64,000 bases of DNA from Erodium maritimum (Eukaryota; Streptophyta; Magnoliopsida; Geraniales; Geraniaceae): positions 18,171,001-18,235,000 of the forward strand of contig OY997594.1 of assembly GCA_963921825.1 (NCBI GenBank), given 5' to 3'. Below, piece by piece: positions 8,631 to 51,476 of this stretch (the stretch's first letter is position 1; the number at the start of each line of letters is the position of its first letter). The position numbers and the translations under genes were made by a program. The notes under the pieces were generated by a model that was not told where the DNA came from, ran no database searches, and worked only from the letters and a program-made list of their open reading frames with translations.

Positions 8631-9800
8631 CTATGATCTCGGCTTCTTGGCGGTCGCTGTCTGTGGCGAATTGCGATGTGGCAAGTTTGACTTCCTTGGC
8701 GCCGAAGACGCATTTGCCCGCGATTTGACCGGCGAATTATGCTGCAAACAAATGTTTGATTTCCCTGAGGACGCAGGTTTATTTGCAAGCGATCTAACAG
8801 GCGAATTGCGCTGCAAAAGTGATGGCCTCGATGCAGAGGGAGAATTACGTTGCGAGCAATGGTTTGATTTCCCGGACGTTGAATATTCATTGGCTCGTGA
8901 TCTAACCGGTGAATTGCGCTGCAAAGGTGATGCCCTTGGAGCAGAGGGAGATGCTTTTGCAGGCGATTTGACAGGAAAATTAGGCTTCGAGCAAAGGTTA
9001 GACTCTGCCAAGGACGACGATGTATTGGGGAGCGATCTGACAGGCGAATTGCGCTGCAAAAGTGATGCCCTTGGAGCAGAGGGAGATGGATGTGCACCTG
9101 ATTTGACAGGCGAATTACGCTGATGATTATTTACACGCGATCTGACCGGCGAATTGCGCTGCAAAGGTGATCCCTTGGAAGAGTTGACCGGTGATCTATG
9201 CACTGAGGACGAAGATTTATTTGCACCCAATCTAACTGGCGAATTGCGCTGTAAAACTGATGCCTTGGGAGCAGAGGGAGATGCATTTACGTGCAAATTA
9301 CGCTGCAAGCAATGGTTTGATTTCCCAGACGACGAAGATCTAACAGGCGCATTGCGCTGCAAAGGTGATGCACTCGAAGCGGAGGGCAAAGATTTATTTG
9401 CCCCTGAATTTGTCCCCGCGCCCGAAGGAGAGAGTACCTCCACGTACCAAAATATGCCCTTGTCGGTCTTAAGCTTTTCTTTCTGGTGCGGGCTTGTGGA
9501 GTTGTGGTCGGGCCAGGTCTTGAGCTTCACCGGAACGCCATCATTGCATATCAGCTCCCAATCCTTGTTACAGTAGGTGGCGGTCAGGCACTGGCCCGAA
9601 CAGCTCTTGAGCCGAATCACCTTTGGCTTCCCTTCCACCGTCTCGATGAACCACTTGGCGTTCGGGGATGAGCCGTGATGGCTCTGCCGGACGGTCCGTT
9701 TGTTGACGTCCGCCACCATGTATGTACGGTTTTCATTCCGGAGCTTGACGGGAGTTGCTCTACCGGACAGCGCCGAAACACAGAAAGAAGCAGGCTCCAT
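8631..9800 (-). CDS. DUF569-domain protein with SPxR tandem-repeat tail (copy 1)
   Basis: A single open frame of 389 residues, with the first real ATG at 9800; the frame opens slightly further upstream but without an ATG. Residues about 14-125 form the DUF569 domain, a plant family predicted to fold like the fascin-type actin-crosslinking beta-trefoil. Visible marks are NAKW at 47-50, VIRLKS at 61-66, WELI at 81-84 and FWYVEV at 117-122. From about residue 125 to the end is a Ser/Pro/Arg/Asn-rich array with about a dozen variants of QRNSPVRS separated by SPSAPRAS or SSSGKSN blocks. The tail has no aromatic core and is probably disordered; the many Ser-Pro pairs are possible sites for proline-directed kinases (inference). 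The gene looks intact and intronless. Biochemical role unknown. Confidence 0.8.
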   Translation of the reverse strand: MEPASFCVSALSGRATPVKLRNENRTYMVADVNKRTVRQSHHGSSPNAKWFIETVEGKPKVIRLKSCSGQCLTATYCNKDWELICNDGVPVKLKTWPDHNSTSPHQKEKLKTDKGIFWYVEVLSPSGAGTNSGANKSLPSASSASPLQRNAPVRSSSSGKSNHCLQRNLHVNASPSAPKASVLQRNSPVRLGANKSSSSVHRSPVNSSKGSPLQRNSPVRSRVNNHQRNSPVKSGAHPSPSAPRASLLQRNSPVRSLPNTSSSLAESNLCSKPNFPVKSPAKASPSAPRASPLQRNSPVRSRANEYSTSGKSNHCSQRNSPSASRPSLLQRNSPVRSLANKPASSGKSNICLQHNSPVKSRANASSAPRKSNLPHRNSPQTATAKKPRS

Positions 9801-10440
9801 TGCTCTACAGGAAAAACAGGACAATTGGATAATATATATGGTTTAATTGACTTCCTTAGACGAATTTCGTAGTACGTAGTTATGTACGCGTCAACAGAAG
9901 GTGAAATGTACATACCAACGAACCACAAGTCATGAGATTCTATTTTTGGTAGGAGAGAAATGCTTGGTCTTTCAAACTTTATTAACGATAAAGAATTGAA
10001 GATATTAAATTGGATCTATTTAATTATACAGATTACACAACAACAAACAAAGTCGCTAGTTTGGTGAATTAGTTAAGTGTGTAAAATCACAAAGACAGAT
10101 ATTTAAGTTGGTGAAATAAGTAAACGCGTAGAGGTAGAGCAGAAGATTTATTGGCAACAGTTGAAGATTATGTATGCAATTAATATTTAATTTTGGGTAA
10201 GAAAATTAAAGAGAAATTAAAAGTTTTATTCTTGCGTGTCGTTGCTTGATAGCATTGAATAGGATATAATATATAATTCTTGGTCCCCTAAACTCGGAAA
10301 GCAAAGAGATGGATAGAACGAGTCATGGAGAGAAGTCATGAACGTTAAATTTCGTGGTAAAGAGAGAGAAATGCACTTGCTTGTTTAGTCCGTAGGATAG
10401 AGCGATGGTTGACGCTTGGAGCTTTCCCGAAGATACAGAA
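9801..10440. other. 5' flank of DUF569 copy 1, duplicated upstream of copy 3
   Basis: No ORF of note. A TATA-like run (ATATATA) sits at 9831-9839, about 30 bp upstream of the ATG. About 9870-10290 matches the copy 3 flank, which is now in pieces at 51540-51731, 53174-53239, 55433-55465 and 59999-60145 (for example TCTATTTTTGGTAGGAGAGAAA and GCAATTAATATTTAATT). The conserved segment marks the ancestral promoter-side flank. Confidence 0.6.
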
Positions 10441-10628
10441 ATTAAGTTTTTTTTTTTTCAGGTAAAAAGTTTTAATAATATTATTATTAGAAGATATACT
10501 TTTATTAAACTTCGAAAATCAACTACAAAAAATTATGTCTGTCAATAAATTTGACTAGAGTTCTTCCTAATATTAACTTTTTCTCTCCCAACTTTGATAT
10601 CTCCTTCTAGTCCTAGCAGCCGAACGCT
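10441..10628. other. T-rich junction and leader before an unassigned ORF
   Basis: A run of T at about 10447-10458 followed by AT-rich sequence may be the 3' end of a minus-strand retroelement, but no matching target duplication was found. 10560-10628 is a pyrimidine-rich leader before the ORF at 10629. Confidence 0.3.
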
Positions 10629-11324
10629 ATGGAGCTATCTCCAACTTCTTCTGCCGCAGTGCCAGCTGCCATCACTAGGTCGGTGATAACCGTCGCTGAT
10701 CCTATCAGTGGTTCTCTTCTCCCCTTCCCTTTCCCTAACCAACCCGCTTCGAAACCTGGGAAGGAGGAGCGTCGCAGGCGGAAAGAAAAGCCGACCCTAA
10801 TAGCTTCGTCACCCTCTGTGTTCTCTCCGACTCTGGGACCGATTTTAGATGGAGGTTCCTTCGCTTTGGGGTCAGCATCTCCTACCCCGGCGGCTAAACC
10901 GAGACGGGGGAGGCCTCAGCTTCGTCCGGCGCTGCCTTCCTCTCCAAGTAAGGGTCTTCTCGCTTTACCTCCCCCAATACCTAGCGTGCCGCCTTGCCCT
11001 ACAAGCCGTGACTTCGCTCTGGTTCCCCCGAACCATAGCGTGGCGCCTTGTCCTACAAGCCGTGACCTCGCTCTAGCTTCCCCGAACCCTAGCGTACCAT
11101 TTCTCCCTGCGAGCCATGACCTTGCTCTGGCTCCGCTACCTAGTGGCGGGGTCTTTAGGGTTTCGGCGCCACTTGGTGCTACCTCAACCCTATTTAGGGC
11201 TGATTACTCCCTAGGTCAAGATCCTGGTTGGGCGTCCGTTCCTAAGATTACATGGGACCAGGTACACATTCCTACTGATGAGGCCTCGGGTGCTAACCCT
11301 AGTACGCTCCCATTACTACACTAG
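10629..11324 (+). CDS. Unassigned Pro/Ser-rich 231-residue ORF with AT-hook-like patch
   Basis: The ORF starts at an ATG (MELSPTSSAA) and is open for 231 residues. A basic patch (GKEERRRRKEK) precedes an AT-hook-like motif, PRRGRPQLRP. Three tandem copies of a unit of about 20-24 residues follow (PCPTSRDFAL, PCPTSRDLAL, LPASHDLAL), and the C-terminus is non-repetitive (ITWDQVHIPTDEAS). No recognised family. It lies between the DUF569 copy 1 flank and a PIF/Harbinger-like ORF1 fragment on the same strand, so it could be the N-terminal part of a transposon ORF1 or a decayed exon. High GC relative to its neighbours makes a chance ORF possible. Confidence 0.35.
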   Translation: MELSPTSSAAVPAAITRSVITVADPISGSLLPFPFPNQPASKPGKEERRRRKEKPTLIASSPSVFSPTLGPILDGGSFALGSASPTPAAKPRRGRPQLRPALPSSPSKGLLALPPPIPSVPPCPTSRDFALVPPNHSVAPCPTSRDLALASPNPSVPFLPASHDLALAPLPSGGVFRVSAPLGATSTLFRADYSLGQDPGWASVPKITWDQVHIPTDEASGANPSTLPLLH

Positions 11325-11552: not shown

Positions 11553-12805
11553 TGTAAAGACCACTCCGTTCGAAAGTTTTGTTATTTACTTTTTGTTCGA
11601 TTGGAACGTCGAGGTAAAAGAAAACGGGTTAAAAAAATTGGAGCAAAAGCAAAAAGAAAAGAAAAGAAAAAAAGGGAGAAGAGAGTGGAAGTAGGCTGGG
11701 CCGGACCAGGTTTGGGATCAGCCAGCCGGACCGGGCCCAAGCCCAACTCGGGTGCCCAACCCTAACGTGAACTATTCACGCGTCTTCCTCACACCGCGCA
11801 CACCTCCCGAGGAAAACCCATCGCTTCCTCTCACCTTCGCTCTCTCGCCTCGCCTCGCTCTCTCCCTTCCTCTCTCAGATCTCGCCGACCAAAACCCTCA
11901 CCGCACCGTACACGTTTCGACCCCGTCGGCGAAGGAGGAAACCCCAGAGTCTCAAACCGTCAGAGACCCCTCGTGTCACACCCCAAATCCGGTATTGACC
12001 GGACTTGAGACGTGACCGGAGTTAAAGGTAGAAACGCGATAAAGAAATACCAAAACCTTTATAATAACAAGATAAACTCTCTCTATATCAACAACTATAA
12101 AATAGTTCCAAAAATTCCAATGAGTCACAACTCAACATAAATAGTCAAATAAATAATGTTTAAAACACACGCCCAACATTGCTCTAAGATAAACCCCAAA
12201 ATGTCCAAAAGCTCCCGATCCTCGAACTCACTAGACATCTGCTACGCCTGTAAAACAGAAAGAAAACCAAAGGTGGGGTGAGCTTACACTCAGTAGGAAA
12301 AACCTTAACAACTCAACCCTTAGGTCAAAACTGTACTGGATAAGCAGATAACTCAAATAACAATAAAATACGATTAACAACAGAATAACGGGTAACAAGA
12401 TAGAATGAGATAAATACGATGAAATAATATATAGACAAGATAACATTAACTTGAAATGTTCCATAAAAGAATCAATATAAAGTATCATAACGATTAAAAA
12501 AGGAGTAATTGATATCACACCAACCACGTGCTTTCTCAAGCCTCTGATCCATGAATAGATTCTAGTGTCACCTCGGTTCCCATAGTCCGATCCACTAGAG
12601 TATTCATATCACATCATATTTTCCCTCGGTCCGGAGGACGCACATACGTCGGAGCACCGGAAACCATCCCATAGGGATGCTCATCTTTGGTATTCTCGAA
12701 AATGTCTCCAAAGGACCATAGTCATAGGGAACCAAGGTAGTGCTCCCGTAGGACACACACCCTTGGGTGAAACCTCAGAAACCATCTCTCATGAAATAAT
12801 CCCAT

Positions 12806-13085
12806 CAATATCCCGTAGGATCTGCCGAGCCATAGGCTCCTAAATCTATCAATATCCCGTAGGATCTGCCGAGCTCTCACGCTCCAATAATCAATCAATA
12901 TCCCGTAGGATCTGCCGAGCCATAGGCTCCTCACATCACTCAATATCCCGCAGGATCTGCCGAGCCCTTAGGCTCCTAAATCTATCAATATCCCGTAGGA
13001 TCTGCCGAGCTCTCAGGCTCCAATAATCAATCAATATCCCGTAGGATCTGCCAAGCCATAGGCTCCTCACATCACTCAATATCTC
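12806..13085. repeat. Minisatellite inside LTR a
   Basis: Five or so copies of an interrupted unit built on TATCCCGTAGGATCTGCCGA followed by GCC/CTC...AGGCTCC, with alternating spacers (AAATCTATC, AATAATCAATC, CACATCACTC). It occupies the same relative place as the different arrays in LTRs b, c and f. Confidence 0.85.
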
Positions 13086-18989: not shown

Positions 18990-19200
18990 TTGGCAGATCC
19001 TGCGGGGCATTGATTATTGGAGTCTGCGAACATTGGTTATTGGACCCTGTGGGGCATTGATTATTGGAGCCTGAGGGCATTGGTTATTGGAGCATGCGGG
19101 GCATTGATTATTGGAGCTTGCGGGGCATTGGTTATTGGACCCTGCGGGGCATTGGGGTGGACCCTGCGGGGCAATTGGATGGTTTACCCTGCGGGAAATG
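18990..19200. repeat. Minisatellite inside LTR b
   Basis: About eight variants of a 20-30 bp unit, CCTGCGGGGCATTGATTATT with GGA. A short array of the same unit is in LTR f at about 34858-34950, but not in e or i. Confidence 0.85.
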
Positions 19201-25722: not shown

Positions 25723-27690
25723 ATCCTCTTCTTTGGGGCAAGTGGCATGACAATCAATCTTTCATCCTTGAGGATAAATTTCATTATTCCTTTCTTCGTC
25801 TGTCGGGTAATCGGGGCCTCATATGGAGTGCTCTGATTGGATAGATCTCTGTTGTCTTCTTGGGTTTTTCAATTTCTGAATGATCAGGTGCAATCTCCCA
25901 ATCATAGGTCGATACGTTCCTAGGGGAGGGGGCATGGATTGATTGGGTGTGCATGGTCCATTTACTCGCGTCGAGGTTTGTGCTACATGTTTTTGGTAGG
26001 GAATCTTGCATTGATGGTGGGGCTTATAGAGCCAAGGGGGAGAAGACCAGAGGGACAAAAGGTCTCGGTGTCATGAACATCCTGGGATTTTATGTGGATT
26101 GCATATGTCAGTCCCTGTTAGCAGTATGTTTGTCCGGAATGGAGTCTGTCTAAGTCCTTCGGATACATGCCTTGATGTAGGGGATTTCTATGGCCATAAG
26201 AGAGATGTCGAAGTTTGGCGGTCCCACCGGTAGAAGAGGGTCCCTCTATTTGCAGTCACTCACATGATGTCTAATACATCCACAATGGAAACAATAGAGT
26301 GGTAAGAGGACGTATTGGATACGAACCTAAAGTGGTGTCTTCGCTCGTATATAGTAACCTTGATTGTACGTCGAAGTGGGGTGGCTAGGTTCTTCCAAAA
26401 TCTCACTCGGAGTACCCCTCTACTCCCCATAGCTGACGTGTCCGTTCGGACACCCAACCCCAAGTGCTTCGCCTATCCTCCCTCCCGTTGTTCGAGTTAG
26501 ACTGTCCAATGGAAGATCTGATATCACCGCTCACAATAGGAGTCTTGAAAACTGTAATGTACCCGGGTTCACCCCCGGTATGAGGTCTTCGAGGATAACT
26601 AGAATGTTCTTTATAAGTAGAATCCCAAGATTCCCCATCCCAAGTCCCTGATCACCAGGCCTTCATGATTCCATACTTTGTTCATGACTCCTTTAGTGAT
26701 TTTTTGGTCACACTCCTGTAAAGTGATTAGACGACCAGGCAAGCCAAAGTTGGTTGGGCCCAGAGTCGAGTAGTCTCAAGGTCTTTATGGAAGAGGATAT
26801 TCTCATCCTTTTCCTCCTCCATTTGGAGAGTATTAAATCTCTGTTGAACAGCCATAATGGTCTCCATAGGGGACTTACCTAGGTCCGGTTGGAGAAGGGT
26901 GTCATCAATTTGCTGCCTAGACGATGGTTCCTTTGAACGGTTCCCCTCATTAAGGTACCTTCCTGAGCTTGCACTTCCGTCCCCCGTATTTGTAACCACA
27001 CGTTATTCCGGGTTAGATCAATTCAGGCTCCCTAGAGGAGGTCCTGGGGAGGCGGTAATAGGGACGCATCTGGAGACCACATCCCACATTGTGTATGGGA
27101 GGGGTGTTGGGGAAGTAGTTCCTATGGCATCGTTCCCAAGCATGTGGTGGTCATGGGGACCGAGTGGGACGGAGGCGCAGACCGTGGGGGATCAGTCATG
27201 TTCATTCCTGGTACGATATTGGGGGTCGTAACTAGTCCGAGTTCTCGTGGTTGGATCATTGTTATATCCGATAGTGGAGTCAATACCATCGGGGGGAGGG
27301 GTTGCAGAGGTGTTGGAGTTGGTCTTTTAGTCTTTTTTTTTATATCTAACGGGTTTAATATGATGGTACTCGGGCCGGTGGCATCTAGTCGGGTTCGCCC
27401 GTCGCAATTGGTTTCTGGCCAACAGCGGGGTTGGGTAGGAGAGGACATACCTTAGTGGTGTTCAACAACATGAGGAAAATGGGTTGAGCTTGTGTGGAAT
27501 CCATGGAGGAAGTTGATGATCGGCGAGATTGACAATGACTGAGGCGGCAAGGTTCGTCAAGGGCGTCTGTCCATTAGAGATTGAAAGCATCGATTGGGAC
27601 GACGCAAAACTGGACATATCGGAGAACTTCAACGACGCTAAGCATGGAAGATGATCAGAGTACGAAAAGATATTTAACCCTTTTTTTTAT
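25723..27690 (-). pseudogene. LINE ORF1 remnant (DUF4283 + CCHC)
   Basis: Minus-strand pieces follow plant LINE ORF1 order. An N-terminal stretch at 26727-26999 is followed by a DUF4283-like region. Then comes GVLRVRFWKNLATPLRR, equivalent to the conserved strand before the knuckle. A perfect CX2CX4HX4C knuckle (CFHCGCIRHHVSDC) lies at 26252-26293, and a low-complexity tail follows. ORF1 of this type binds LINE RNA. Frames change repeatedly and no RT follows. No poly(A) end or target duplication was found; the 3' side abuts the truncated LTR element. Confidence 0.65.
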
Positions 27691-30019: not shown

Positions 30020-30024
30020 ACCTC

Positions 30025-32648: not shown

Positions 32649-35600
32649 TGTAAGAACCGCCCCGGTCGATCCCGGTCGAACCGGTGATTTCTAGACAAGT
32701 TTGACTTTCGGCCGGAAGAGTCAACCAATGACTCAAGAAGTCATTCGAGACCTTTTCGAGGCCCAAAAAGCTTAGCCGTCATCACGGTTAGCTTAGTTGG
32801 GCCATTTCCTTCAGTTTGACTGTAATATTGGTTAAGTCAACTTTTGGTCAAACTTGGACTTTTTATCGGTTATTTTCCGATCTAATCTTGGAAGGCTGGA
32901 AATTTATTTAAGGGAAAGTGACCCCACATGACACTTGGAATTTTTGGCTTGGAGGATGAAAAAGGGGCTTCCATTGAGCCTTATACCCTTCCAACTTACC
33001 TTTCAAGGGATAAGACCTTAAAGGCCTTTAAGTAAATTGACACAATAGGTCATTTAAAGAAAAGGGAACACACAATTCAGCTCATTATTTGTTGTGGCAC
33101 CGAAATTCACCAAGGGAGAGAAGAAGGGAGAGTTCCATTTCTTGAGGAAAAAGAAAGAGAGGAAAGCTAGCATTTTGGGACTTGTTCTTGACCATTTCTT
33201 CTCCATTTTCCTTCCATCTTCATCATCTCATCTTCCTAGAGGTATGGATGTCCTTAACACTCCATTTCATCCACTTTCAAGTTTTGGGTTTTGTGGGTAT
33301 TTGGCTTGAAGTTGAAGAACTAGCTATTTTGATTGTTAATGGAGAAGAATTAGTGAAGTTAGGTTGTTTGGATTGTGTTTTGGTTGAAGTTTTGATGAAC
33401 CCATTGAGGGTGTTGATGATTCGAGGCTTTTGATAATTATTTTGGAGTTGTTTAGAGCTGGAAATGGAGTTTTGGGAGTGATTTTCGTGGAATCCGAGTT
33501 GGGGAAGAAAGGGGAAGGCTTTGGTCAGGTCTGGCACAGAACGTGACCCGGACTGGGCCATGTGCCGGCACGGCAGGCCGCACGGAACGGGTCTGGTACC
33601 GGCACGGTACGCGGCGCGGAACGGGTGAGAGTCTGGCACGGTACCTCACACGGTCCGTGTCAGACTCCGGGCCGGTGCATCGCGTGGTTCGTGCTGGTTA
33701 CCGGGCCGGTCTGTGATACGGTCCGTGCCAGGTTTCGGCACGGCCAGTGACACAGTCCGGACCGCATTCCGGATCAGATTTCCAGAACCAAAACCCTTTC
33801 TTTTGAGTCCATTTCGATTCCTAGATCATTCCTTTGACTTTGTTTCTATTCTTGAGGATTGTTCTGTATTTTTGGTTGAGGAGCACTCCGTTGAGTTACT
33901 AATTTTGGTATTGTTGTGGTCCAAGACCGTGAGACCGAGCTCGAAAGGAGGAAAGGCCTTGGAACCGAGCTAGAGGGACGAAGACCACTCCGAAACCCTT
34001 GTGAAGAACGGAGGAGAGGCTAATCGAACCTTACAGCAGAGTATTATTAGAGGAAGACCACAAGGTAGGGAAAGTCCTAACTCGTCGTTTAAATAACGTT
34101 TTAGTATGCCTATTAGGTTAATAAAATCGGAAAGGTCCTAGAATTGCATATAGGACGCGAATAACTAGAATAAATGTCTTTCAATTACTAATAACTGGAT
34201 GTGTCTAGTAAGCATGCCTAGGATGTGAATCACTAGTGTAGCTCGCTTTCAATACTTGGGAATTGATTTACTGGTAGAGAGGCCGTGATGAGCCCTCGGA
34301 TTAGTTGTGTTTGGTTCATATGCTTGGTTGCCTAGTTTGGTTAAGCTAAGAGTCTAATACAACTAGATGATTCGAATGTCAAACATGAATGTTTGAATGC
34401 TTACTTGATCGGATGCTTGGATGAATAATTGTATGAACGTTGAGTGTAATTGTTTGTGCTAAATGGGACATGATCGGGTGAATGATAGACCGATGGAGTG
34501 TGATTGGTAAGTAATTGGTAAGTGTAAGGCTACATTGATTCTTGTGGTGTGTTGTGATAAAATTGTGATTTGTTAAGCTTTGGTTGCATCATGATTGTTG
34601 AGTATGTTATTCTCTTGTGAGTCTTTGGGTTGGGATCTATATCGGTATGTACCCACGCTGCGGGTGGGGTAGTGCCTGTAAGGTACCCACACCAAAGGGA
34701 ATGCTGGTGTGGGGTAGTACCTAAACCGATGACTTGGTATCCGGTATGGTACCCACACCGAAGGAAGTACCGGTGTGGGGTAGTATCATAGTCGGTATCC
34801 GGTATGGTACCTACACCGAAGGAAGTGCCGGTGTGGGGTAGTATCATAGCCGATGGATTGGACCCTGCGGGGCATTGATTATTGGACCCAGCGGCGCATT
34901 GGTTATTGGACCCTGCGGGGCAATTGGATGGTTTACCCTGCGGGGGATGGTTATTGGTTGATTCACCCAAGTGTATGCGTCCTGCGGGAGCAATACCTTG
35001 GTTCCCTATGACATATGGTCCTTTAGAGACGTTTCCGAGAATCCCGACGATAAGCGCCCTCAGGGGTTGTTACCGGTATTCTCGACGTTATACGTCTTGT
35101 GACGTCATGCGTCTCCTCTGGACCGAGGGAAAATCCGACATGACACAACGAGTATTGTGGATCGGAGGGTGGTGACTTCATGTCCCACGGCATTAATTGG
35201 ACGCCCTGTTTTCTCATGATCTTTAAAGAAATGCATTAATTCCCTTATTTTACTATGATTATTGTTGACTCTTTGAAAGTGTTAAACACTCGGTTTGCCT
35301 CCGTATTTCATCATCTGTTTGGTTTCTCATCTTATTAAGATTTGAATAAACTTGTGAACTCCTATTTATTAAACTGAAAGGTCGCCTTGGTTATGCATTT
35401 TTCCTACTAAGCGTAAGCTCACCTCTATCTGTTTATGACTGTTTTACAGGTTTACGTGATGAGTAGTAGACTCGAGGCTCGGGAGCTTCTATGGTCCGGG
35501 TGCTTGTCTCTAGAGGCGTTGGTCATATTTTTGGTCATGAACCTTTGTTAAGGGATTTATTATGAGTTTTATGAACCTTGTGTTAAAGGTTTTATTATAA

Positions 35601-35735: not shown

Positions 35736-36078
35736 GAAGGGGAAGACCCTCATCGACAAAATAATTGCCATAGCGGACATGGAATGAGCAAGGGCCAGGT
35801 GCAATGAATAAACTTAGAAAGGGGCCGACTATGTAAGAACCGCCCTCGGTTGAACCGTTGAAATTTAGGAAACGTTGACTTTCCGTCGGAAAAGTCAACC
35901 GATGACTCCGGGAGTCATTCGAGACCTTTCTAAGACCCAAAAAGCTTAGTTGTCGTTACGGTTAGCTTAGTTGGGTCGTTTCCTTTCAAATGACTACTTT
36001 TGCGAAAAAGTCAAATCCGGGTTAAACGGGGTCGAATTAGAGGTCTTATCGAATTAATTTAATTTAAGTTGACATATT

Positions 36079-36462
36079 TGTTGGGTTTGCCCTAGGCCCA
36101 ATCGGGTTTCAAGCCCAATTGAGTCTTGTACCCAATAATGAAAACTATATAAAGAGATAATTAGGGTTAAGAGAAAATAATTAGATTATTCTCTGCAGCC
36201 ACTTTTTCTATTCTCTCCCAAACAACCAAAAGAAGAATCGTTCTTCTCTATAGCCGTCTCAATCGTTGAAAGCATCAAAGATCGTTACTCGGTGTGGATA
36301 CACTAGAGGCTTCGTAGTTTCGGAGCTATATCGGTTTTGCTCTACATATCAAGTAAGTAAACCTTTTTATTGTTTTAACATTGGTTCAAATGCAAATAGA
36401 TCGTTTTGGATCGAATCCTTTTATTCCGCTGCGAACATATGATGTTTGTTTTCGATCCTTCA
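36079..36462 (+). repeat. Copia 5' LTR
   Basis: 384 bp, TGTTGGGTTTGCCC to GATCCTTCA. Contains a TATA-like ACTATATAAAGAG about 70 bp from its start. Confidence 0.95.
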
Positions 36463-36464
36463 AT

Positions 36465-36477
36465 TGGTATCAGAGCC
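36465..36477 (+). other. Copia primer-binding site
   Basis: TGGTATCAGAGCC, two bases after the 5' LTR. It is complementary to the 3' end of initiator tRNA-Met, the standard primer of plant copia elements. Confidence 0.92.
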
Positions 36478-37239
36478 TTGGATTTTTTGCTTTTAAATCA
36501 TATGTGAAATTGGTTTTATTGTTAATATAAAGCTGTATACATATACTCTATTTTGGATAAAACTGTGTATCTTATATATGGGTACCGATTCTACGGTCAC
36601 TTGAATCAGGAATATGATTCCAATGTCTTTGTTCTTTTGCAACATGTAAAAGTGTATGTGTATATATATACTTTTCCGTACATGATTGATTATGGCGCAT
36701 GAGTTAACTAGGTGATCATGTCTTGGTTATTATGATGTTTATTTTTAAACATTTAATATGGTTGGTTTTTGTTGCAAATCACAGTATATGATTCATGGCT
36801 AAAACTTGGTTTTAAAATAGATGAAACATGTTCTCTGTCGTACCGAGTATGATAACTTATACAGTGAGTCTTGCATGATAAACCATGTTCATATATAGAT
36901 GCTTATAATCATGTTCATGAGAATATACATGTTGGTATGATTTAAGTTGGTTGATCGGGTAATGATCAATTTTATTATTGACGATTATATACGATATAAT
37001 CATAATTGTTATTAAAATTGTTTTAATGACATAAAATTGATTATTTTAAAATTATTGAGTTTTAATTGATAAAATATGAGATATTTTGTCATCGGCTTTT
37101 TCATCCAAGTAGATAAATAATTATTATTCGTTTACAAGGAACGACCTGACTACTAGGGGACTTGTAGTTCGGAATAATTTTTTACTTTATTTTTATTTAC
37201 AAGGTACGACCTGACTACCAGGGGACTTGTAGTTCAAAG

Positions 37240-37275
<36 letters not shown>

Positions 37276-37732
37276 CTCTTATTTGCATACGATGCAGGTA
37301 CATAGAAAATTATTTAATGTTAGTACTTATAGTCTGGACTACCCAGAGGGTATAACTTTAATTAATTTTCAAGAGGAAGTAATTTTGTCTATTGCATGTG
37401 ATGCGTGAGTGAAGAAAAAAAAATTATTTGATGTTACACTTATAGTCTGGACTACCCAGAGGGTGCAATATTAACTGGTTTTATGTCACTAGGATGAATA
37501 AACTCAAATATACTAATAGGACCGACCTGACAACTAGGTGACTATGTAGTATATAGCCTGTTGTGGTTTTATGTGATAAAATCAAGAAAAACTTTAATTA
37601 TGTGTGAGAAACGACTTGACAACCAAGGGGCTCATTCATGTTTTAAAGTTTGTATTATCATTTTGATGACTCGTATGTCTTAATGATGTATGTTTGTGCT
37701 ATTGTTGTTTTCCTTTACAGTAACTTTCTGAA
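36478..37732 (+). other. Copia 5' leader with iterated motifs
   Basis: Long untranslated leader before gag. It has two near-identical blocks, ACGACCTGACTAC(T/C)AGGGGAC, at 37141 and 37206, and two degenerate versions at 37521 and 37611. Two copies of TATAGTCTGGACTACCCAGA lie at about 37328 and 37441. A (TA)n run is at 37243-37273. The blocks may fold or act in packaging (inference). Confidence 0.7.
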
Positions 37733-39088
37733 ATGGATACTATCTCACTGCGTGGCATACTTGATGCTAACAAATTGTCTGGTAACAATTTTGATGACTG
37801 GTACCGGAACTTGAGAATTGTTCTCATGCATGAAAAACTTATCGATGTGATCGATAACCCCATGATGGAAGCTCCCGTTGAGGGAGTGACTGATGTAGTT
37901 GCATTAGATGCATATTCGAAGTACCAGGAACGAAGTACTACTACTCAGTGCATCATTTTGGCTTCCATGAGTCCTGATCTTCAGAGGCAACATGAGACTA
38001 TGAATCCACCACAGATCATAGAGCATCTTAAGAAGATGTATGGGTCTCAGAGTAGGACTGCAAGATATCATATATCTAATTCCTTGTTCAAATCTGAACT
38101 GAAACCCAAGGAACCAGTTCGCACCCATGTTCTAAAGATGATTGATCTTGTAGAACGGCTTGAGAAGCAAGGCTGCACACTTGGTAAGGAGTTATCGCAG
38201 GATTTGATCTTGCAATCTCTTGATGACACTTTTTCACCGTTCATTGTTAATTATAACATGAACAAGATGGATTGTGATCTTCATGAATTGCTCAATTTGT
38301 TGATCGATTTTGAGAATCAAATCACATCTGAGAAGGTGAAAGTGTCGGGATCTGTGAACCTGATCGGTAGCTCTTCTAAGGGAAAGTGGAAAAATGCGAG
38401 GAAATCTAAGAAAAATCCACTTGGGCCAAAGAATTATGTTATGAACAAATTCAAGAAAATGAAGTTGAGCACTGGTCCGGAGGATGCTGAATGTTTCTTC
38501 TGCAAGAAGAAAGGACATTGGAGGAGGAATTGTCAAGAGTATTTGGCTACTCTGAAGGACAAGAAACAAGGTAAGGCATTAATGAAAAATGTTTTCATGA
38601 TCACTTTGACATCTATTGATGCTTCGAAATGGGTATTGGATACCGGAAGTGGTTTTAGCATCTGCAATATGTTGCAGGGGCTAAAAATCAATAGGGTGTT
38701 GAAGAAAGGAGAGGTCAACATACAAGTTGGATATAAAGCAAGTGTTGCTGCCCTAGCTGTAGGGACTATGACTCTTGTAATGCCTACTGGAAAGACTTTA
38801 TTGTTGGAGGATTGTTATTACATTCCTACGTTTCTTTCAAACATAATTTATGTTTCATATTTGGTTGACCATGGATTTCGTTTGGATATTCGTGGTAATC
38901 ATTGTTCTATATTTCATGGTGATGAATTATATGTCGATGTTTACAAACAATATGGTCTTTATGTCTTACCTGAATTAGTTACTTGTCCTGCTATGACTAT
39001 TTCTGGCCAAAAGAGGAAGAGAAATAATCAAGTAAATCAAAATTACCTTTGGCACTGTAGGCTTGGCATATCGGTGAGAAAAGAATAA
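37733..39088 (+). pseudogene. Copia gag-protease reading frame
   Basis: The frame opens at an ATG (MDTISLRGILDANKL) and runs 451 residues. The gag part (about 1-250) has the UBN2-type pattern WYRNLRIVL. The CX2CX4HX4C knuckle CFFCKKKGHWRRNC begins at residue 254 (38492-38533). The aspartic protease active site DTGSG is at residue 303. The pre-integrase motif begins with NYLWHCRLG. A one-base deletion near 39068 then shifts the frame, so integrase is read in the next frame. Gag would form particles and the protease would process the polyprotein. Confidence 0.92.
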
Positions 39089-39093
39089 ACAAG

Positions 39094-40830
39094 TTGCATA
39101 AGACGGGGAGTCTTGGGCTATATGATTATGAATCATACGATACTTGTGAATCTTGTCTCATTGGAAAATTGACAAAATCTCCTTTTAATGGAACTGGAGA
39201 AAGAGCCAGTGAACTTTTGGGACTCATACATAGTGATGTATGTGGACCAATGAAAGTTCAAGCAAAAGGTGGATATTCTTACTTTATCACCTTCACTAAC
39301 GATATGTCGAGATATGGTTGCGTATATCTCATGAGACATAAGTCGGAATCTTTTGAAATGTTCAAAAGGTTTAGAAGTGAAGTTGAGAAACAAACCGGTA
39401 AGAATATCAAGGCACTGAGATCTGACCGTGGGGGTGAGTATCTCACAGATGATTTTATTGATTATTTATCACAAGATGGAATCCTATCACAATGGACTCC
39501 TCATGGGACACCGCAACACAACGGTGTTTCTGAGAGGCGAAATCGTACCTTATTAGATATGGTACGATCGATGATGGGGTTCACAGATCTTCCTATCTTC
39601 CTATGGGGATATGCTTTAGAAGCTGCTGCATATTTGTTAAATAAGGTTCCCACTAAGGCAGTTGCTGAAACACCGTATGAGATATGGAAAGGACGGAGAG
39701 CCGGCCTTAAACATTTAAGGGTTTGGGGTTGTCCGACCTATGTTAAGCGACTGCAATCAGACAAGCTTGAGGCTAAGTCTACCAAATGCAGATTTGTTGG
39801 TTATCCCAAGGAGACTATGAGATACTATTTCTACCATCCTTCTGAACACAAAGTGTTTGTGGCTAGGAACGCGACCTTTTTAGAAATGGAGTTCCTTGAT
39901 GCTGGAAAAACTGGAGTAGAAATAGATCTTGATGAAATACAAGATACCAATGAGCCAGCACCGACTCAAGAGCATGAGATGCATATTGAGAAACCTTTTC
40001 TTGATGTCTTACAGTTGCCACCGAGGGTTCCAACCTCAAACGTTGAGGTAAATGATTTGGTTAATGAACCAGTTCAGGAACAAGGGCAACAAGAGAATCA
40101 AGAAGTACAAGAGCCTCCTAGAAGATCAATTAGAGAACGTCGTGCACCAAATAGGATGAATCTATTAGTGTGCAATAATGAGGATAATCATATTGATGAT
40201 GACCTTGTTATTGAAGACGATCCTAAGTGTTATCAAGAGGCGATGGCTAGTCCAGACCATGAGAAATGGCTTGCTGCCATGGAATCCGAAACGGAGTCAA
40301 TGAAGATCAACAAAGTGTGGACTTTAGTTGATGACTCTAATGACTTAAAACCTATTGGGTGTAAATGGGTTTTTAAGAGAAAGATTGGAGCGGATGGTAA
40401 GGTTGAAACCTTTAAAGCCCGTCTGGTTGCTAAGGGTTATAATCAAAAGGAAGGTATTGATTATGAAGAAACGTTCTCCCCTGTTGCAATGCTCAAATCT
40501 GTTCGGATTTTGCTAGCTATAGCTACATACTATGATTATGAGATTTGGCAAATGGATGTGAAAACAGCTTTCCTTAATGGTGAGCTCAAGGAGGATGTCT
40601 ATATGACTCAACCTGAAGGTTTCACATTGTCATCTGCTCCTAGTAAAGTATGTAAGCTACAACGATCCATTTATGGATTAAAGCAAGCTTCTCGTAGTTG
40701 GAACATTCGTTTTCACACGACAATCGAAAAGTTCAATTTTGTGCGTTGTGAAGAGGAGCCATGTGTGTACAAAAAGGTTAGTGGGAGCATAGTTATTTTC
40801 CTATTGTTGTATGTAGATGACATGTTGTAA
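39094..40830 (+). pseudogene. Copia integrase and N-terminal reverse transcriptase
   Basis: 578 codons in the shifted frame, continuing pol. The CESC zinc-binding pair is followed by the integrase core with LIHSDVCGP, RSDRGGEYL and NGVSERRN (the D, D and E positions). A linker rich in Glu/Pro/Asn follows, then reverse transcriptase with FKARLVAKGYNQKEG, WQMDVKTAFLNG and the catalytic YVDD at 40810-40821. A one-base deletion two codons after YVDD creates the stop at 40828-40830. Integrase would insert the cDNA, and RT would copy the RNA. Confidence 0.93.
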
Positions 40831-40850
40831 TAGGAAATGATGTTCCAGTC

Positions 40851-41759
40851 ATGCAAGAAACAAAGGTTTGGCTATCTGAAAACTTCTCCATGAAAGATAT
40901 GGGAGAAGCAACTTATATTCTTGGAATAAAGGTCTATAGAGATAGATCAAGGAAGTTGCTTGGAATCTCCCAATCTACGTACATTGATACTATCTTAAGG
41001 AAGTATCACATGGATAATTCCAAAAAGGGTTACTTACCTATTGGAACTGGAGTTTCTCTTTCTAGAGAGGATAGTCCTAAGACCCTAGAGGAAAGAGAAC
41101 GCATGAGTAGAATCCCATACGCTAACGCAGTGGGAGCTATCATGTATACCATGACATGTACAAGATCGGATGTTGCCTATGCGCTAGGAGTAGCAAGTAG
41201 GTACCAAGGAAATCCGGGTGAGGCACATTGGAAAGTTGTCAAAACTATTCTTAAGTACTTGAGAAGAACTAAAGACCAATTCCTCATATATGGAGATAAT
41301 GAGCTTAAATTGTTAAGCCATACCGATGCAAGTTTTGCATCAGATAAGGATGATAGCAAATCTACTTCTGGTTATGTCTTTACCTTGAATGGTGGAGCAG
41401 TGAGTTGGAAGAGTTCCAAACAAGCTACAGTAGCTGATTCAGTAACCGAAGTAGAATACATAGCGGCATGTGACGCTGCTAAGGAAGCTGTATGGATAAG
41501 GAAGTTCTTAACTGAGCTTGGTGTGGTTCCTTTAACAAAGGAAAGTGTTCCTTTATTTTGTGACAATACGGGAGCTATTGCACAAGCCAAAGAGCCGAGA
41601 GCACATCAGAAATCCAAACACGTTCTTCGGAAGTTTCATCTAATTAGAGAAATAGTTGAACGTGGAGACGTTCAAATTCTGAAGGTGGAAGGAAAAGAGA
41701 ACGTTGCAGATCCTTTCACTAAAGCACTTGGTTCAAAGGAGTTTGACAAGCATAAGTAG
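40851..41759 (+). pseudogene. Copia C-terminal reverse transcriptase and RNase H
   Basis: 302 codons in the next frame. They cover the RT thumb region (FSMKDMGEATYILGIKV), the usual copia motif DVAYALGVASRY, and the RNase H domain with SHTDASFASD, VEYIAACDAAKEA and FCDNTGAIA, ending with DPFTKAL. The order and length are normal for copia. It is separated from the preceding piece only by the one-base deletion near 40827, so pol would otherwise be continuous. RNase H would remove the RNA template. Confidence 0.93.
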
Positions 41760-42915
41760 AATATAGGATTGAGGTTCATGAATGGTTGGCTTTAGATTAA
41801 ATGCTAATCTTTACGCAACATTATTATTAGCACATTTTTGAACTATGGATTGTGATTAATGGAGTTTAATGCAATGTTTTATAGTTATCATATATGAATA
41901 TTTATTGATATTGTGATATGATAAGTCCTTGATTAAACTGTTATACTTGTCATTATAATGGAGATTATGATAATGAGAGTCAAGTATTATAGAGTTTTAT
42001 CTAAAAGTGTTCTTGGTCATATGATCATCCTACTAGGACCACGATGATCCGGATAGACCAATATATGTATAATTGTACTCATTGGATGAGTATTAATGGA
42101 TCTCATTCATTAAGTTATAATATAGATGATGCATATAGTGGATATGATCATTGAACTGACCAAACGTAAGATTTCCAAATGGTTGACTTTACCTATACTG
42201 TCAATGTGGAAATTCTCTTAAGGAACAAATGTATATTGTTTTTGTCCTTTGACCTGAGATCACCATAGTGGTTAATAGAAAATACTTGTTATACTTTGAT
42301 ACCGAACACCTAGTGTGTAAAAAATGCTAGTTGAAAGGTCATTGGGTATAATTGAGTACCTATATAATCAATGGCGAGTCAAGAGGGGATCCATCAACTC
42401 AAGGTAATGAGTTTGAACTCTATGTTGTTATGAATCTTATGGTTGGAAAAGATCCTTGGCCAAGGCAGAAGAATGATTTGAGAAAGGAGTTTCTTAAAGT
42501 CATTCAACAACCAGTAACGATCAACATGAAACATAGTGGTTATCCATTAGGGTTTGACAGTCAAACCATACCCTAGGATAATCCGGAGTTGGAAAGATGG
42601 AAGGAAAACAATTCATCGTCCTTAACCAGGTTCGTCTTTATTGGATATTGATATTCACGTTATCCGGTCGTCGAGGAGTGTTGTTAGACGCCAACCTCGA
42701 TTAGTAGTTAATGAGATTAATTACTACCGGTTTAGCGTTGAACCTATGTGGTCACACACTTACGAGTGATGTTTGATGTTTAAGATCATTTAAATTTATT
42801 ATGAGATAATTTATTGAAATGATTTAGATGGCATATTTGTTATACCTTCTGCTAACACAGAAGTGTAATAAATATTGGAGTTCTTGACCGATTGGATCTA
42901 GGTCAAGTGGGAGAT
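41760..42915 (+). other. Copia 3' untranslated region and polypurine tract
   Basis: About 1.15 kb after pol, without a recognisable env or accessory gene. The purine run AAGTGGGAGA at 42905-42914, immediately before the 3' LTR, is the likely plus-strand primer. Confidence 0.75.
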
Positions 42916-43299
42916 TGTTGGGTTTGCCCTAGGCCCAATCGGGTTTCAAGCCCAATTGAGTCTTGTACCCAATAATGAAAACTATATAAAGAGATAATTA
43001 GGGTTAAGAGAAAATAATTAGATTATTCTCTGCAGCCACTTTTTCTATTCTCTCTCAAACAACCAAAAGAAGAATCGTTCTTCTCCATAGCCGTCTCAAT
43101 CGTTGAAAGCATCAAAGATCGTTACTCGGTGTGGATACACTAGAGGCTTCGTAGTTTCAGAGCTATATCGGTTTTGCTCTACATATCAAGTAAGTAAACC
43201 TTTTTATTGTTTTAACATTGATTCAAATGCAAATAGATCGTTTTGGATCGAATCCTTTTATTCCGCTGCGAACATATGATGTTTGTTTTCGATCCTTCA
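42916..43299 (+). repeat. Copia 3' LTR
   Basis: 384 bp, identical to the 5' LTR except for four transitions, and followed by the ATATT duplication. Confidence 0.95.
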
Positions 43300-48150: not shown

Positions 48151-48154
48151 TTGT

Positions 48155-50171
48155 TCATCTCGACATAATACATTTAGGTTTGGTTCGATTCTCCTTGTTG
48201 TGAGGAGACCTTGGATACAATGGTAGGGGACAGGGGTCCAAAACCTGGTGGGACGTCCGGAGACACCTTGACCTCCTAATCGGCCGTGTACTGCTTGGCC
48301 TTCCGATCCTGCTGAAACTCCAACATCGAGTCATCAAAACGTGGGGTACCACGCATCTCCCGATCACACTCCTGAGCCTTATGACCGATCCTCCTGTAGT
48401 TGAAGTAGAATGTGGGGAGCTTCGTGTAGGTGAGCGAAAGCCGAACGGGGTCTGGGAACTCCCTAAAATGCAACAACAGATGTCGACAAAGAGGATGTTC
48501 CACGGGGTGCCAGAACCGAACCCTTACCGTCTCTCCACAACACAAAGACCATTGATCGCATGGGACCTCCACACAGGTACCCAAAGCTGTGCAAATATTT
48601 TCTCCAGTCGACTTCGTCCGGGCCGATAGAGGGAGACCATAGGCATGGACCCATAGCTGTAAACGATCCAGGGAAGGAAGTCCCTTGGCCAATGGGTCAA
48701 TGTACTCAAAGAGGAGAGGACGACCATCAAAGCACCAAGGTTCATTGTCCCGGACCCATGTCTGCGCTTCCTCCGATTCAAAGTAAAACCCAAAGACCCT
48801 CAAGCTTATGTCCTTGATAACCAAACCCATCATCGATCGTCCTCATGCATTGGTGATGATGTGTAGTAGGACTTCCTTCCGAGAAGGCCTCGGGGCCCAA
48901 AGCTTACCCACCATGTCAAAATATTGGCGTGCCAACACAGATGGATTAACCGGTGAGTAAGGAACCAACACCTCTGTTTACTCTTCATCATCGAGAGAGC
49001 ATGATGAGAGACAACCATTGAGACTTTCCATGGTTGACGCAAGCAAGCCCGGGGGCATCAGGACTTTTGGTTCTAGGGTTTCGTCTGACGGAAGCGTAGT
49101 TCCTCCTCGCCGAACCATACCTACAAGATCAGTGAGTAAGGACGGGATCACTAGGATCCGATCAGTATTGGGGAGGGAGAGGGCAGCATGTAGAGGCGCC
49201 TTCATCTCCTTTCTCTGGTCGTTGTCGACGGGCGCATTCCCTCGACTAGGGTCCCTCCGTAATGGAGGAAGAGACTTAGAACCATCTATGGATAGGAGGA
49301 GCGGCTGATGGAGGGTTGCGGTGCCACGCCCCAAATCGGGTTTTAACCCGAACTCGAGACGTGAACTAAAAATAATAATAAAGAAAGTAACTTTGAACGA
49401 AATAAACCTCCAAATAATAGTTCAAACCAATAATTCCGACAACAAGAGTCAAATGCTCGAAATCCAAGCAATAAGAAGTTTAGTACAAAAGGAAAGTACG
49501 TCTCTAGACCATCCAAACTAGGACTCTCGCTAAGCTCCCAAGCTCCGAGACGTCCTCTAAATCAAATCGCGATCAAAACATGTAAAACAGTAGAAATGGG
49601 GGTGAGCTTTCGCTCAGTAGGAAAAAGTAGTAAAGGGAGTGAGCAATTGCTCACCACCACGGATACCCGTCCAATTATGGCATACTAGTAAGGCAATAAC
49701 AGAGACGGCTAAGCTTTTAGGGTCCCGGAAAGGTCCCGAATGACTCTCGGAGTCATTGGTTGACTTTTTCGGTGAAAAGTCAGCTCTTCCCGATTTCCAA
49801 CGGTGTCGACCGGGGGCGGTTCTTACATGCGTGAAGCCAAAGGCACGGTTAGGGCTTTCATCGAACGACCCCTCCAAGACTTCAATAGTGGCGACGCCAA
49901 CGATGTGATGAGCCTTGGAAAGAAAGCCACAATCGCCATGGAAGATGGGGGCGATGGAGGTATTCTAGCAGCGGTTGGATTCGGCTTCCTCATACCTCGT
50001 GCCTTTAAGGGGTTCGGGACGTCAGATGAAGAACGTGGGGGTGGGGCGATCAGCGATGCAGAGAATTGCATGGTAGGGGATGGTGATGGGACAAGATCGG
50101 ACGTTAACTCGCCGTTGTCGACGACGACGACCAGAATAAAGAGTATCATAAATAAGGCTAAGGTTCCTTAA
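48155..50171 (-). pseudogene. LINE ORF1 remnant (DUF4283, dead CCHC), split by LTR h
   Basis: The 185-residue piece at 48276-48833 matches plant LINE ORF1. It has the DUF4283 core (FYFESEEAQTWV, then PWCFDGRPLLFEY), the following strand VRVRFWHPVEHPL, and a knuckle position reading YFNYRRIGHKAQEC, where two Cys are replaced by Tyr. Upstream coding pieces continue to 50171 across the 506-bp LTR h. No RT follows, and the 3' limit is not defined. Inactive. Confidence 0.65.
49322..49827 (-). mobile_element. LTR h: internally deleted solo LTR, 506 bp
   Basis: It begins TGCCACGCCCC and ends GGGCGGTTCTTACA, the two family termini in minus orientation. Flanks TGCGG (49317-49321) and TGCGT (49828-49832) are a 5-bp duplication with one change. 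Only about one sixth of the usual length remains, with both ends intact, so the middle has been deleted. Confidence 0.8.
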
Positions 50172-50468
50172 AAAGGCACGCGACATAGCATGACAGAGAG
50201 AATGGTCACTATTGATATATCAGTATTGTTTAATTCAAGGGCGAGGTGTGAACCCGTTTATTGACCCTCTCTGCATTGCGTTTCCAACACTCGCATTCAT
50301 TATTTTTTTCGTAACATTTTAGTCTAATATACTTGAGTACTTTTTCTCCTAAGAACATCTATACATGACATAAAACAAGATTGTGGAGGGCTTCAATGGT
50401 TTAAATTCAAACAGTGAAAGGGCCTATTACAAAGAAACAAACGAATATATATAAATTGATTCTTTATC
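50172..50468. other. 3' flank of DUF569 copy 3
   Basis: From about 50310 it matches 8425-8630 downstream of copy 1. No gene is seen. Confidence 0.6.
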
Positions 50469-51476
50469 TTATGATCTTGAACTTTTGGCGATCGCTGCCT
50501 GCAACAAAGAGTTGGACGGCGAATTGCGATGGGACGGAGAAGATGTATTTGCATGAGAATTGACCAGCAAATTGCGCTGCAAAGTTGATGCCCTCGGAGC
50601 AGAGAGAGATGCATTTGCACACGGTCTCGGTGGCGAATTGCGCTGCGAAGGTGATGCCCTCGGAGCAGAGAAAGATACAATTGGACGCGATCTCGATAGC
50701 GAATTGCGCTGCGAAGGAGATGCCCTCGGAGCAGAAGAAGATACAATTGGACGCGATCTCGGTGGCGAATTGCGCTGCGAAGGAGATGCCCTCGGAGCAG
50801 AGGAAGATGCAATTACACGTGATCTCGGTGGCGAATCACGCTGCGAAGGAGATGCCCTCGGAGCAGAGGAAGATGCAATTGCACGCGGTCTCGGTGGCGA
50901 ATTGTGCTGCGAAGGAGATGCCCTCGGAGCAGAGGAAGATGCAATTGCACACAATCTCGGTGGCAAATTGCGCTGCGAAGGAGATACCCTCGGAGCAGAG
51001 GGAGCAGAGGTGGATGCATTTGCATGCAATTCAGTAGCCGAATTAAACTGGGAGACATGGTTTGATTTCCCGGAGGACGAAGATTTCTTTGGACGCGATC
51101 TTCCCGGCGAAGTTTGCTGCGAAGGTGATGACCTCGGAGCAGAGGGATCTGCCTTTGCTGGCGAAGTGCAAAGGCTTGATTTTCCTGAGGACGAAAATTC
51201 ATTTACACGCAATCTAGGCTGCGAATTGCCCTGTGACGGTGATGCCCTTGAAGCGGAGGGTACAGATTTAACCGGTGAGCTTCTCCACGCCTCCGAAGTG
51301 GTCGAGTTCCGGTCGGAGCAGCTCTTGAGCCCAATCACGTTTGTCTTCCCTTCCACCCTCTCGGCGAAGCCGTCATGGCTCTGCCGGACTGTCTGTTTGT
51401 CGACGCCTGCCACCGTGTATGTAGGGTGTTCAGAACTGAGCTTGACTCCCGAAACAGAGGAAGAAGGCGGGTCCTT
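50469..51476 (-). pseudogene. DUF569 copy 3: start codon lost, domain truncated, repeat tail expanded
   Basis: The frame is open from 51512 to 50469 but has no ATG. The position equivalent to the start codon of copy 1 reads AAG at 51474-51476. The DUF569 part is reduced to two blocks (TYTVAGVDKQTVRQSHDG and ERVEGKTNVIGLKSCSD), lacking NAKW and everything from LTAT to the end of the domain. The tail is longer and more regular than in copy 1, with about seven 22-residue units of the type SAPRASPSQRNSPPRSRPI. The tail remains open although the domain is broken. It is most likely a pseudogene; a non-AUG start or an alternative upstream exon is the only route to a protein. Confidence 0.75.
50566..51010. 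repeat. 66-bp coding minisatellite in DUF569 copy 3
   Basis: Units begin at 50632, 50698, 50764, 50830, 50896 and 50962, exactly 66 bp apart, each starting near GGCGAATTGCGCTGCGAAGG, with weaker units on both sides. A 66-bp unit keeps frame (22 residues). It is open on both strands, so the long plus-strand frames here are shadows. Confidence 0.92.

Follow-up and report, generated by a model that had tools for sequence, protein, structure and literature searches.

In a 64,000-nucleotide window of the Erodium maritimum genome (the whole stretch of DNA analysed here), the minus strand carries three open reading frames (ORFs) related to the DUF569 family: copy 1 (8631-9800), copy 2 (28020-28769) and copy 3 (50469-51515). 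The question raised by this locus is whether the Ser-Pro repeats that follow the domain are a regulated part of a working protein or the remains of decaying genes. The explanation we tentatively favor, with a joint probability of roughly 45%, is that these are DUF569 duplicates in which copy 1 is coding and has a tail switched by kinases, and copy 3 is probably a recent pseudogene.

Three DUF569 copies and their flanks

Copy 1 encodes 389 amino acids from a Met start, i.e., a shortened DUF569 domain (residues 1-128, 9417-9800) followed by a tail of A and B repeats, whose residues 148-382 (8655-9359) hold 12 QRNSPVRS-type boxes. Copy 2 (249 amino acids) has the highest DUF569 score of the three, and copy 3 is a stop-to-stop ORF of 348 codons that contains no Met. 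Scored against the Pfam profile PF04601 (DUF569; IPR007679; gathering cut-off 23 bits, 142 model positions), copies 1 and 2 reach 61.3 and 96.6 bits, and the remnant in copy 3 (residues 23-75, 51291-51449) scores 22.5 bits, just under the cut-off. The initial annotation, which had described three paralogues sharing this domain, was thus right for copies 1 and 2, but copy 3 retains only a fragment of it and has no Met. The best stretches cover profile positions 6-67 in copy 1, 1-68 in copy 2 and 9-68 in copy 3; none of the three matches the 142-position model over its full length, a match that is typical of, but not required for, membership of PF04601. Copy 2 matches the profile in three stretches (its second half, searched alone, best at positions 90-139). 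The second half of the copy 1 domain found no match when searched alone against Pfam, and we count this incomplete cover against our explanation. A scan of bacterial and archaeal genomes with copy 2 gave 27 pattern matches, 0 of them confirmed, as expected of a plant gene.

The duplication took in more than the ORF, given that the 3' flank of copy 1 (8440-8630, minus strand) aligns with that of copy 3 (50310-50468) at 84% ungapped identity. The same 84% identity between copies 1 and 3 holds for the flank at either end of the ORF, and 0 of 300 shuffles reached either score. The ORFs themselves are no more conserved (ungapped identity 81% and 74%, the latter in the tail). Between the domains of copies 1 and 2, dN/dS is 0.95 (0.55-1.86), a range that does not reject neutrality, and the tails of copy 1 and copy 3 give 0.68 (0.49-0.91). 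All of this agrees with the earlier description of this family as fast-evolving.

The sequence TATAAA lies 76 bp upstream of the copy 2 ATG. The start codon of copy 1 falls upstream of the position that aligns with the copy 2 start, i.e., in the equivalent of the 5' leader of copy 2. Copy 1 may have a spliced leader, and an upstream exon may supply a start to copy 3. A pyrimidine-rich stretch ending in TGTAG is seen directly before the copy 1 ATG, and one Copia element is located between copies 2 and 3.

Repeat tails and proline-directed sites

Common A (22 residues) and B (ca. 23 residues) units make up the tail in both copy 1 and copy 3, and the alignment of the two tails scores 356, the maximum among 1000 shuffles being 188. 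Of its 24 raw gaps only 14 are multiples of 3, a point against our explanation. Copy 3 carries older A/B units in common with copy 1 (51000-51287), followed by an array (50538-50999) in which the A unit is present in seven copies of 66 bp, or 22 residues (consensus SAPRASPSQRNSPPRSRAIASS). TRF describes this array as 66 bp x 6.5 copies with 90% matches, and so bears out the regular 22-residue array reported before; the irregular QRNSPVRS units of copy 1 (12 boxes) and the doubled PFGQxNSP of copy 2 were likewise recovered. The twin boxes of copy 2, PFGQLNSP and PFGQTNSP (28053-28145), are 23 residues apart, and copy 1 also has two QxNSP boxes at this spacing. The copy 2 tail cannot be taken as a proven homologue of the other two, since its alignment score was reached by 98 of 1000 shuffles with copy 1 and by 303 of 1000 with copy 3. 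The claim that each copy has a different repeat therefore fails for copies 1 and 3, built from the same units. ST proteins with DUF2775 are reportedly plant DUF proteins whose family is characterised by tandem repeats; they resemble copies 1 and 3 in this respect but differ in domain (DUF2775 vs. DUF569).

Boxes were placed with a protein anchor, one (residue 272) being added by eye. A frame-blind DNA scan (at most 9 mismatches) returned the identical 12 boxes in copy 1 and 10 boxes in copy 3, nine of which are common to the anchor set, and all hits at 7 to 10 mismatches lie in the coding phase. Seven of the 12 boxes in copy 1 read S-P-V-[RK].

Substrates of MAPKs and CDKs phosphorylated at multiple sites show recurrent S/T-P sites in which position +3 is basic, and this is the pattern found in the tails of copy 1 and copy 3. 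Copy 1 has 8 [ST]-P-x-[KR] motifs in its tail, compared with 1.3 in shuffles (0 of 2000 had as many), and copy 3 has 7 in its tail, compared with 1.8 (as many in 3 of 2000), an excess which, as tandem copies are not independent, means that the motif was repeated and not that it was invented many times. Copy 2, the best-scoring member, has none, which we count against the kinase-tail explanation. It also counts against it that a strict MAPK docking motif is absent from all three copies; the single loose match in each of copies 1 and 2 was equalled in 476 and 194 of 1000 shuffles, respectively.

Coding or decayed

An open frame alone was rejected as proof of coding for copy 3, given that an antisense reading of this stretch also runs for 319 codons without a stop; coding was judged instead by whether phase is conserved, by simulated stop load and by codon bias. 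The frame was maintained for a long time between copies 1 and 3: phase is kept in all 689 bases of their aligned ORF blocks of at least 15 nt, but not in the outer flanks. Blocks not wholly inside the ORF fall into the three phases as 198/35/54, with two blocks that straddle the ORF ends contributing 110 of the 198.

Stop load was simulated for copy 1 under neutrality (substitutions only, 2000 runs). With 0.10, 0.15 and 0.20 substitutions per site, the frame remained free of stops in 0.85%, 0% and 0.05% of runs, respectively. If the tail grew late, this test is weaker, as 11% of runs at 0.10 and 5% at 0.15 leave the first 600 nt open.

These numbers bear on the possibility that both repeat-tailed copies are pseudogenes and that copy 2 alone may work. 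This we regard as unlikely, even though copy 3 has no Met and lacks most of the domain, the copy 1 start sits within the aligned leader of copy 2, its domain is shortened and the domain dN/dS between copies 1 and 2 is close to neutral. At about half of the synonymous distance between copies 1 and 2 (0.29), neutral drift would keep the 389 codons of copy 1 open in under 1% of simulations, or in ca. 5% should its old part be limited to the first 600 nt, and both the frame kept between copies 1 and 3 and the silent bias in the copy 1 boxes also speak against decay of copy 1. In these boxes 27 of 50 changes are silent (15.4 expected, P = 0.0006), and no silent excess appears when the same boxes are read in the other two frames. 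Counting each change once leaves 12 of 29 silent (8.8-8.9 expected, P = 0.06 or 0.13), and the SAPRAS segments of copy 1 have no silent bias (4 of 7 vs. 3.3, P = 0.41). The small samples from copy 3 give 13 of 41 silent changes in the boxes (11.7 expected) and 9 of 40 in the array (10.0 expected; unique changes 7 of 30 vs. 7.7). A Fisher test of copy 1 against copy 3 boxes gives P = 0.037 on the false premise that changes are independent. We consider the silent bias at the box level in copy 1 to be moderately supported.

The same codon counts could be read in another way, i.e., the tail may be a passenger: a functional domain would have beside it a coding minisatellite that expands through replication slippage, so that the frame matters and the sites do not. 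We think this doubtful, albeit possible. It would account for the lack of codon bias in the copy 3 array, for tails that are less alike than their flanks (74% vs. 84%), for unit lengths divisible by 3, which preserve the frame at no cost, and for a copy 1 box bias that is not significant once each change is counted a single time. However, the silent excess seen with all changes counted and a tail dN/dS whose upper bound is 0.91 argue against it; moreover, copy 3 may have left selection when its start was lost, and its array need not speak for copy 1.

Copy 1 is thus most likely a coding gene, now or recently, with an expanded tail of proline-directed phosphosites. Copy 3 is probably a recent pseudogene: its 348 codons have no Met and its domain carries deletions. 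No stops or frameshifts were found in its old frame, which is in phase with copy 1; such lesions are common in pseudogenes but not required of a recent one. The scenario of local pseudogene decay raised at the outset looks right for copy 3 and less likely for copy 1.

Published relatives and a proposed kinase-switched tail

DUF569 genes have reported stress phenotypes, and the published passages give them no known biochemical function. AT1G69890 (AtDUF569), of the same domain family as the copies described here, is NO-induced and its mutant has drought and biotic stress phenotypes; unlike copies 1 and 3, it is not mentioned as having a repeat tail in the cited passages (PMC8158135, PMC7378322). 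In AT1G59710, an S-P-P-K phosphosite was found 7 and 8 h into MAPK activation but not in the control column (PMC4202796), and a phospho-hotspot at residues 195-203 (PMC3433687) should lie after the domain, judging by the profile length of ca. 142 residues. A peptide of AT1G27100 with a terminal pS-P-R rose 8.0-fold on average after MKK7 induction (PMC5727051). Compared by published peptides, these two DUF569 proteins resemble copies 1 and 3 in the type of site, their phosphorylated S-P being followed by a basic residue at position +3 (S-P-P-K) or +2 (S-P-R), but differ in that the published passages give single peptides with sites and no tandem array, whereas copy 1 has 12 boxes and a shorter domain. 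As the sites in these passages rise with activation of the MPK3/6 pathway, this kind of site is already known, and the array represents a variant of it. The idea of a phospho-regulated tail thereby gains independent support. No DUF569 repeat tail was found in print in full-text searches of an open-licence library, where 28 papers name DUF569 and two of these (PMC9966272 and PMC10134865) also name tandem repeats; the repeat mentioned in the passages of PMC9966272 belongs to another DUF.

A constitutive interaction of the basic Ser-Pro tail with actin, microtubules or nucleic acid, which comes near the view of the initial annotation, seems highly improbable to us. Residues 129-389 of copy 1 do combine a net charge of +39 with low hydrophobicity, and "actin cross-linking" is attached to DUF569 family members, although in the published passages as a database label only. 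These passages hold no experimental actin data, and in those of PMC8158135 actin appears only as the qPCR reference gene. A sequence search of solved structures (phmmer) with copies 1 and 2 found no relative up to E = 10, and the AlphaFold model of the copy 2 domain (pLDDT 33, from an alignment of 2 sequences only) is unusable. The proposed actin link thus found no support.

We return to a kinase-switched tail, for which we postulate the following course. A local group of DUF569 genes (a beta-trefoil family) arose by duplication including the flanks, transposon insertions between the copies probably aiding their spread. Before copies 1 and 3 separated, tandem duplication behind the domain produced units of 22 or 23 residues around QRNSPVRS, a box whose proline-directed site is followed by a basic residue at +3. 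Copy 1 would be the coding and presumably expressed form, with its shortened domain and strongly basic tail; an MPK3/6-type MAPK (or a CDK) could phosphorylate many of its sites, and the added negative charge would act as a charge switch on binding to a putative acidic partner. In copy 3, one unit was amplified, and the start codon and most of the domain would have been lost.

The number of [ST]-P-x-[KR] sites (0 in copy 2, 8 and 7 in the tails of copies 1 and 3) also invites the improbable reading that the copies form a natural series, in which minisatellite expansion alters the number of MAPK-type sites of a stress-signalling protein and repeat number sets the threshold or gain of a phospho-switch. 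If true, plants would possess a rapidly mutating control on those drought or immune responses that depend on DUF569. If copy 1 is not expressed, the locus would exemplify a dying gene that leaves its coding minisatellite behind. If it is expressed, its repeated sites would point to multisite proline-directed phosphorylation as central to DUF569 action, and the copies would illustrate how the number of sites is altered by repeat turnover.

Three DUF569-type reading frames in transposon-rich DNA

Judged by its content, the window looks like transposon-rich plant DNA, and its minus strand encodes three DUF569-type (PF04601) ORFs: copy 1 at 8631-9800 (389 aa, Pfam DUF569 61.3 bits), copy 2 at 28020-28769 (249 aa, 96.6 bits) and copy 3 at 50469-51515 (348 codons from stop to stop, 22.5 bits). 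The Pfam cut-off being 23 bits, the three DUF569 paralogues of the initial annotation are borne out for copies 1 and 2, with copy 3 falling below the threshold. A tblastn search of the whole window with copies 1 and 2 (E up to 1) returned no further DUF569 domain; the sole extra match, 11 residues (10 identical) at 26556-26588 on the plus strand against the copy 2 tail stretch NVAGFTPGMRS, would at E 0.18 be chance or a stray fragment. Profile positions ~69-89 are missing from the Pfam match of copy 2, and since copy 1 aligns without a gap across the skipped point, this shortening probably predates the split of the two copies, although the second half of copy 1 gave no Pfam match on its own. 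The start codon of copy 1 falls within the region aligned with the 5' leader of copy 2, whose own start-codon stretch is deleted or altered in copy 1; in copy 3 the codon opposite the copy 1 start is not a start codon, and the entire ORF is devoid of Met. A 321-codon open frame antisense to copy 3 (50557-51522, plus strand) is read as a by-product of a 66-bp repeat.

Between copies 2 and 3 lies a Copia-type LTR retrotransposon (36078-43220), whose gag-pol ORFs occupy 37724-41759 of the plus strand. Its direct repeats, at 36078-36383 and 42915-43220, agree at 99% over their first 300 nt, and this near-identity suggests a recent insertion; no match was seen between the flanking 5-mers tried at its outer ends, which are provisional. 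Remains of a LINE-type element occupy 641-2966 on the minus strand, where the reverse transcriptase domain RVT_1 (1782-2966) belongs to one ORF and zf-RVT (641-1588) to another. A 498-aa ORF (5535-7031, plus strand) combines an RRM domain scoring 54.7 bits with an AT-hook-like stretch, KRGRPKKGQPKK, and from its resemblance may be ORF1 of a plant LINE. The 3' end of copy 3 lies ~1.6 kb from a fragment of DUF4283 (48276-48842, minus strand), a domain of plant LINE gag-like proteins.

Shared repeat units in the tails of copies 1 and 3

Each copy had been thought to carry a different repeat C-terminal to its domain. On closer view the tails of copies 1 and 3 are built of two common units: A (~22 aa, S-A-P-R-A-S-P-x-Q-R-N-S-P-x-R-S...), at residues 140, 176, 241, 286 and 322 of copy 1 and at 87, 125 and from 173 onward in copy 3, and B (~23 aa, ...S-S-G-K-S-N...), at residues 157, 265, 308 and 344 of copy 1 and at 109 and 147 of copy 3. 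The two tails align with a score of 356 against a shuffle maximum of 188 (n=1000), and homology extends into the flanks of the two genes at either end (84% ungapped identity; 0/300 shuffles reach either score). In copy 2 a distance of 23 residues separates two QxNSP boxes, and copy 1 shows this spacing too, but the homology of the copy 2 tail to the others stays below significance in a shuffle test; its 3' flank matches that of copy 1 weakly (1/300 shuffles reach the score) and its 5' flank within chance (38/300).

Copy 3 has an array of seven 66-bp A units (50999-50538, minus strand), which are 87% alike mutually, 77% to the A units of copy 1 and 76% to the older A units of copy 3 itself, and this closer likeness to each other points to amplification after copies 1 and 3 split. 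As the A units of copy 1 are also alike (84%), some homogenising took place on both sides. Other tandem arrays are present at 12804-13083, 18999-19195 and 34736-34957 (periods such as 45, 24 and 58 bp), thus minisatellite growth is common here and not peculiar to DUF569 tails.

Tests for coding constraint on the frames and boxes

In the nucleotide alignment of copies 1 and 3, all 689 bases of in-ORF blocks of at least 15 nt are in phase (689 in, 22 out at >=10 nt; 757, 59 and 23 by phase for all blocks), while the remaining blocks of at least 15 nt distribute 198, 35 and 54 bases over the three phases; two blocks straddling the ORF ends provide 110 of the 198, leaving 88, 35 and 54 in the purely outer flank. 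Copies 1 and 2, over the first part of the genes only, give 280/280 (304 in, 11 out at >=10 nt). Gaps between copies 1 and 3 are divisible by three in 3/3 cases in the domain, 14/24 in the tail and 5/16 in the flanks, against 1/3 in the domain of copies 1 and 2 (sizes 2, 3 and 5); the tail gaps, of which the small ones offset one another locally, are at best moderate evidence for frame upkeep. In neutral simulations (substitutions only, 2000 runs per level; 0.05, 0.10, 0.15, 0.20 and 0.25 substitutions/site) the full frame of copy 1 stayed open in 9.7%, 0.85%, 0%, 0.05% and 0% of runs, its first 600 nt in 31%, 11%, 5.0%, 1.3% and 0.8%, copy 2 in 26%, 7.4%, 2.0%, 1.3% and 0.1%, and copy 3 (its array reduced to a single unit) in 32%, 11%, 4.6%, 1.8% and 0.8%. 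Synonymous distances are 0.29 (copies 1-2, domain), 0.50 (1-3, domain) and 0.66 (1-3, tail), roughly half of each being assigned per branch. dN/dS (bootstrap range) is 0.95 (0.55-1.86) for the domain of copies 1-2, 0.70 (0.40-1.24) for 1-3 and 0.53 (0.25-1.24) for 2-3, 0.68 (0.49-0.91) for the 1-3 tail and 0.47 (0.00-1.07) for a short 1-2 tail match, itself not significant. Phase, gaps, stops and dN/dS together indicate that selection maintained the frame through much of its history, with amino acids only weakly constrained.

Within the tails, the 12 QRNSPVRS-type boxes of copy 1 differ from their own consensus by 50 changes, 27 of them silent where 15.4 are expected (P 0.0006); when recurrent changes are entered a single time, 12/29 are silent (8.8 expected, P 0.06, or 0.13 when sampling with repeats is allowed). 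The SPVRS part alone gives 21/40 (13.2 expected, P 0.005; unique changes 10/23, P 0.16). The excess vanishes when the boxes are read in the other two frames, and the SAPRAS segments lack it (4/7 against 3.3). Copy 3 shows no silent bias, either in anchor-found boxes (13/41 against 11.7), in DNA-found boxes (13/38 against 12.0) or in its array (9/40 against 10.0; unique 7/30 against 7.7). Thus the boxes of copy 1, where S-P-V-[RK] is still present in 7/12, look moderately well kept as proline-directed sites bearing a basic residue at +3, whereas those of copy 3 do not. The latter result fits the missing start and fragmentary domain of copy 3, probably a recent pseudogene, though it may instead possess an upstream exon.

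A putative multiplied phosphosite type

Sites of the [ST]-P-x-[KR] form number 8 in the copy 1 tail (net charge +39, 261 residues), 7 in that of copy 3 (+35, 272 residues) and 0 in that of copy 2 (charge 0, 89 residues), and the charge-hydropathy boundary formula puts the first two on the disordered and the last on the folded side. Multisite phosphorylation of the basic copy 1 tail could act as a charge switch; it speaks against this idea that a scan for strict MAPK docking motifs gave no match and that the best-scoring copy, copy 2, is without the site. An actin role, which the initial annotation also raised, goes back to a database label and gained no support here.

For Arabidopsis AT1G59710, published data place a phospho-hotspot at residues 195-203, inside FRQESTDSLAVGSPPKS (PMC3433687), and its S-P-P-K serine is phosphorylated 7 and 8 h into sustained MPK3/6 activation but not in the control column, in data where, as the authors note, direct targets are not told apart from indirect ones (PMC4202796). 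The AT1G27100 peptide RPTSSPLSAEpSPR rises a mean 8.0-fold (p 0.023) upon MKK7 induction, this protein not being one of the six tested in vitro (PMC5727051), and a switchgrass protein matched to AT1G59710 contributes a peptide, with no visible S-P site, to a herbivory phosphoproteome (PMC7481182).

The DUF569 domain, the gene family and the site type are already known. Searches of open-licence full texts turned up no DUF569 protein with a tandem A/B array of these sites, and this array would be the new part. The natural reading is that copy 1 would have multiplied a site type already in use within the DUF569 family.
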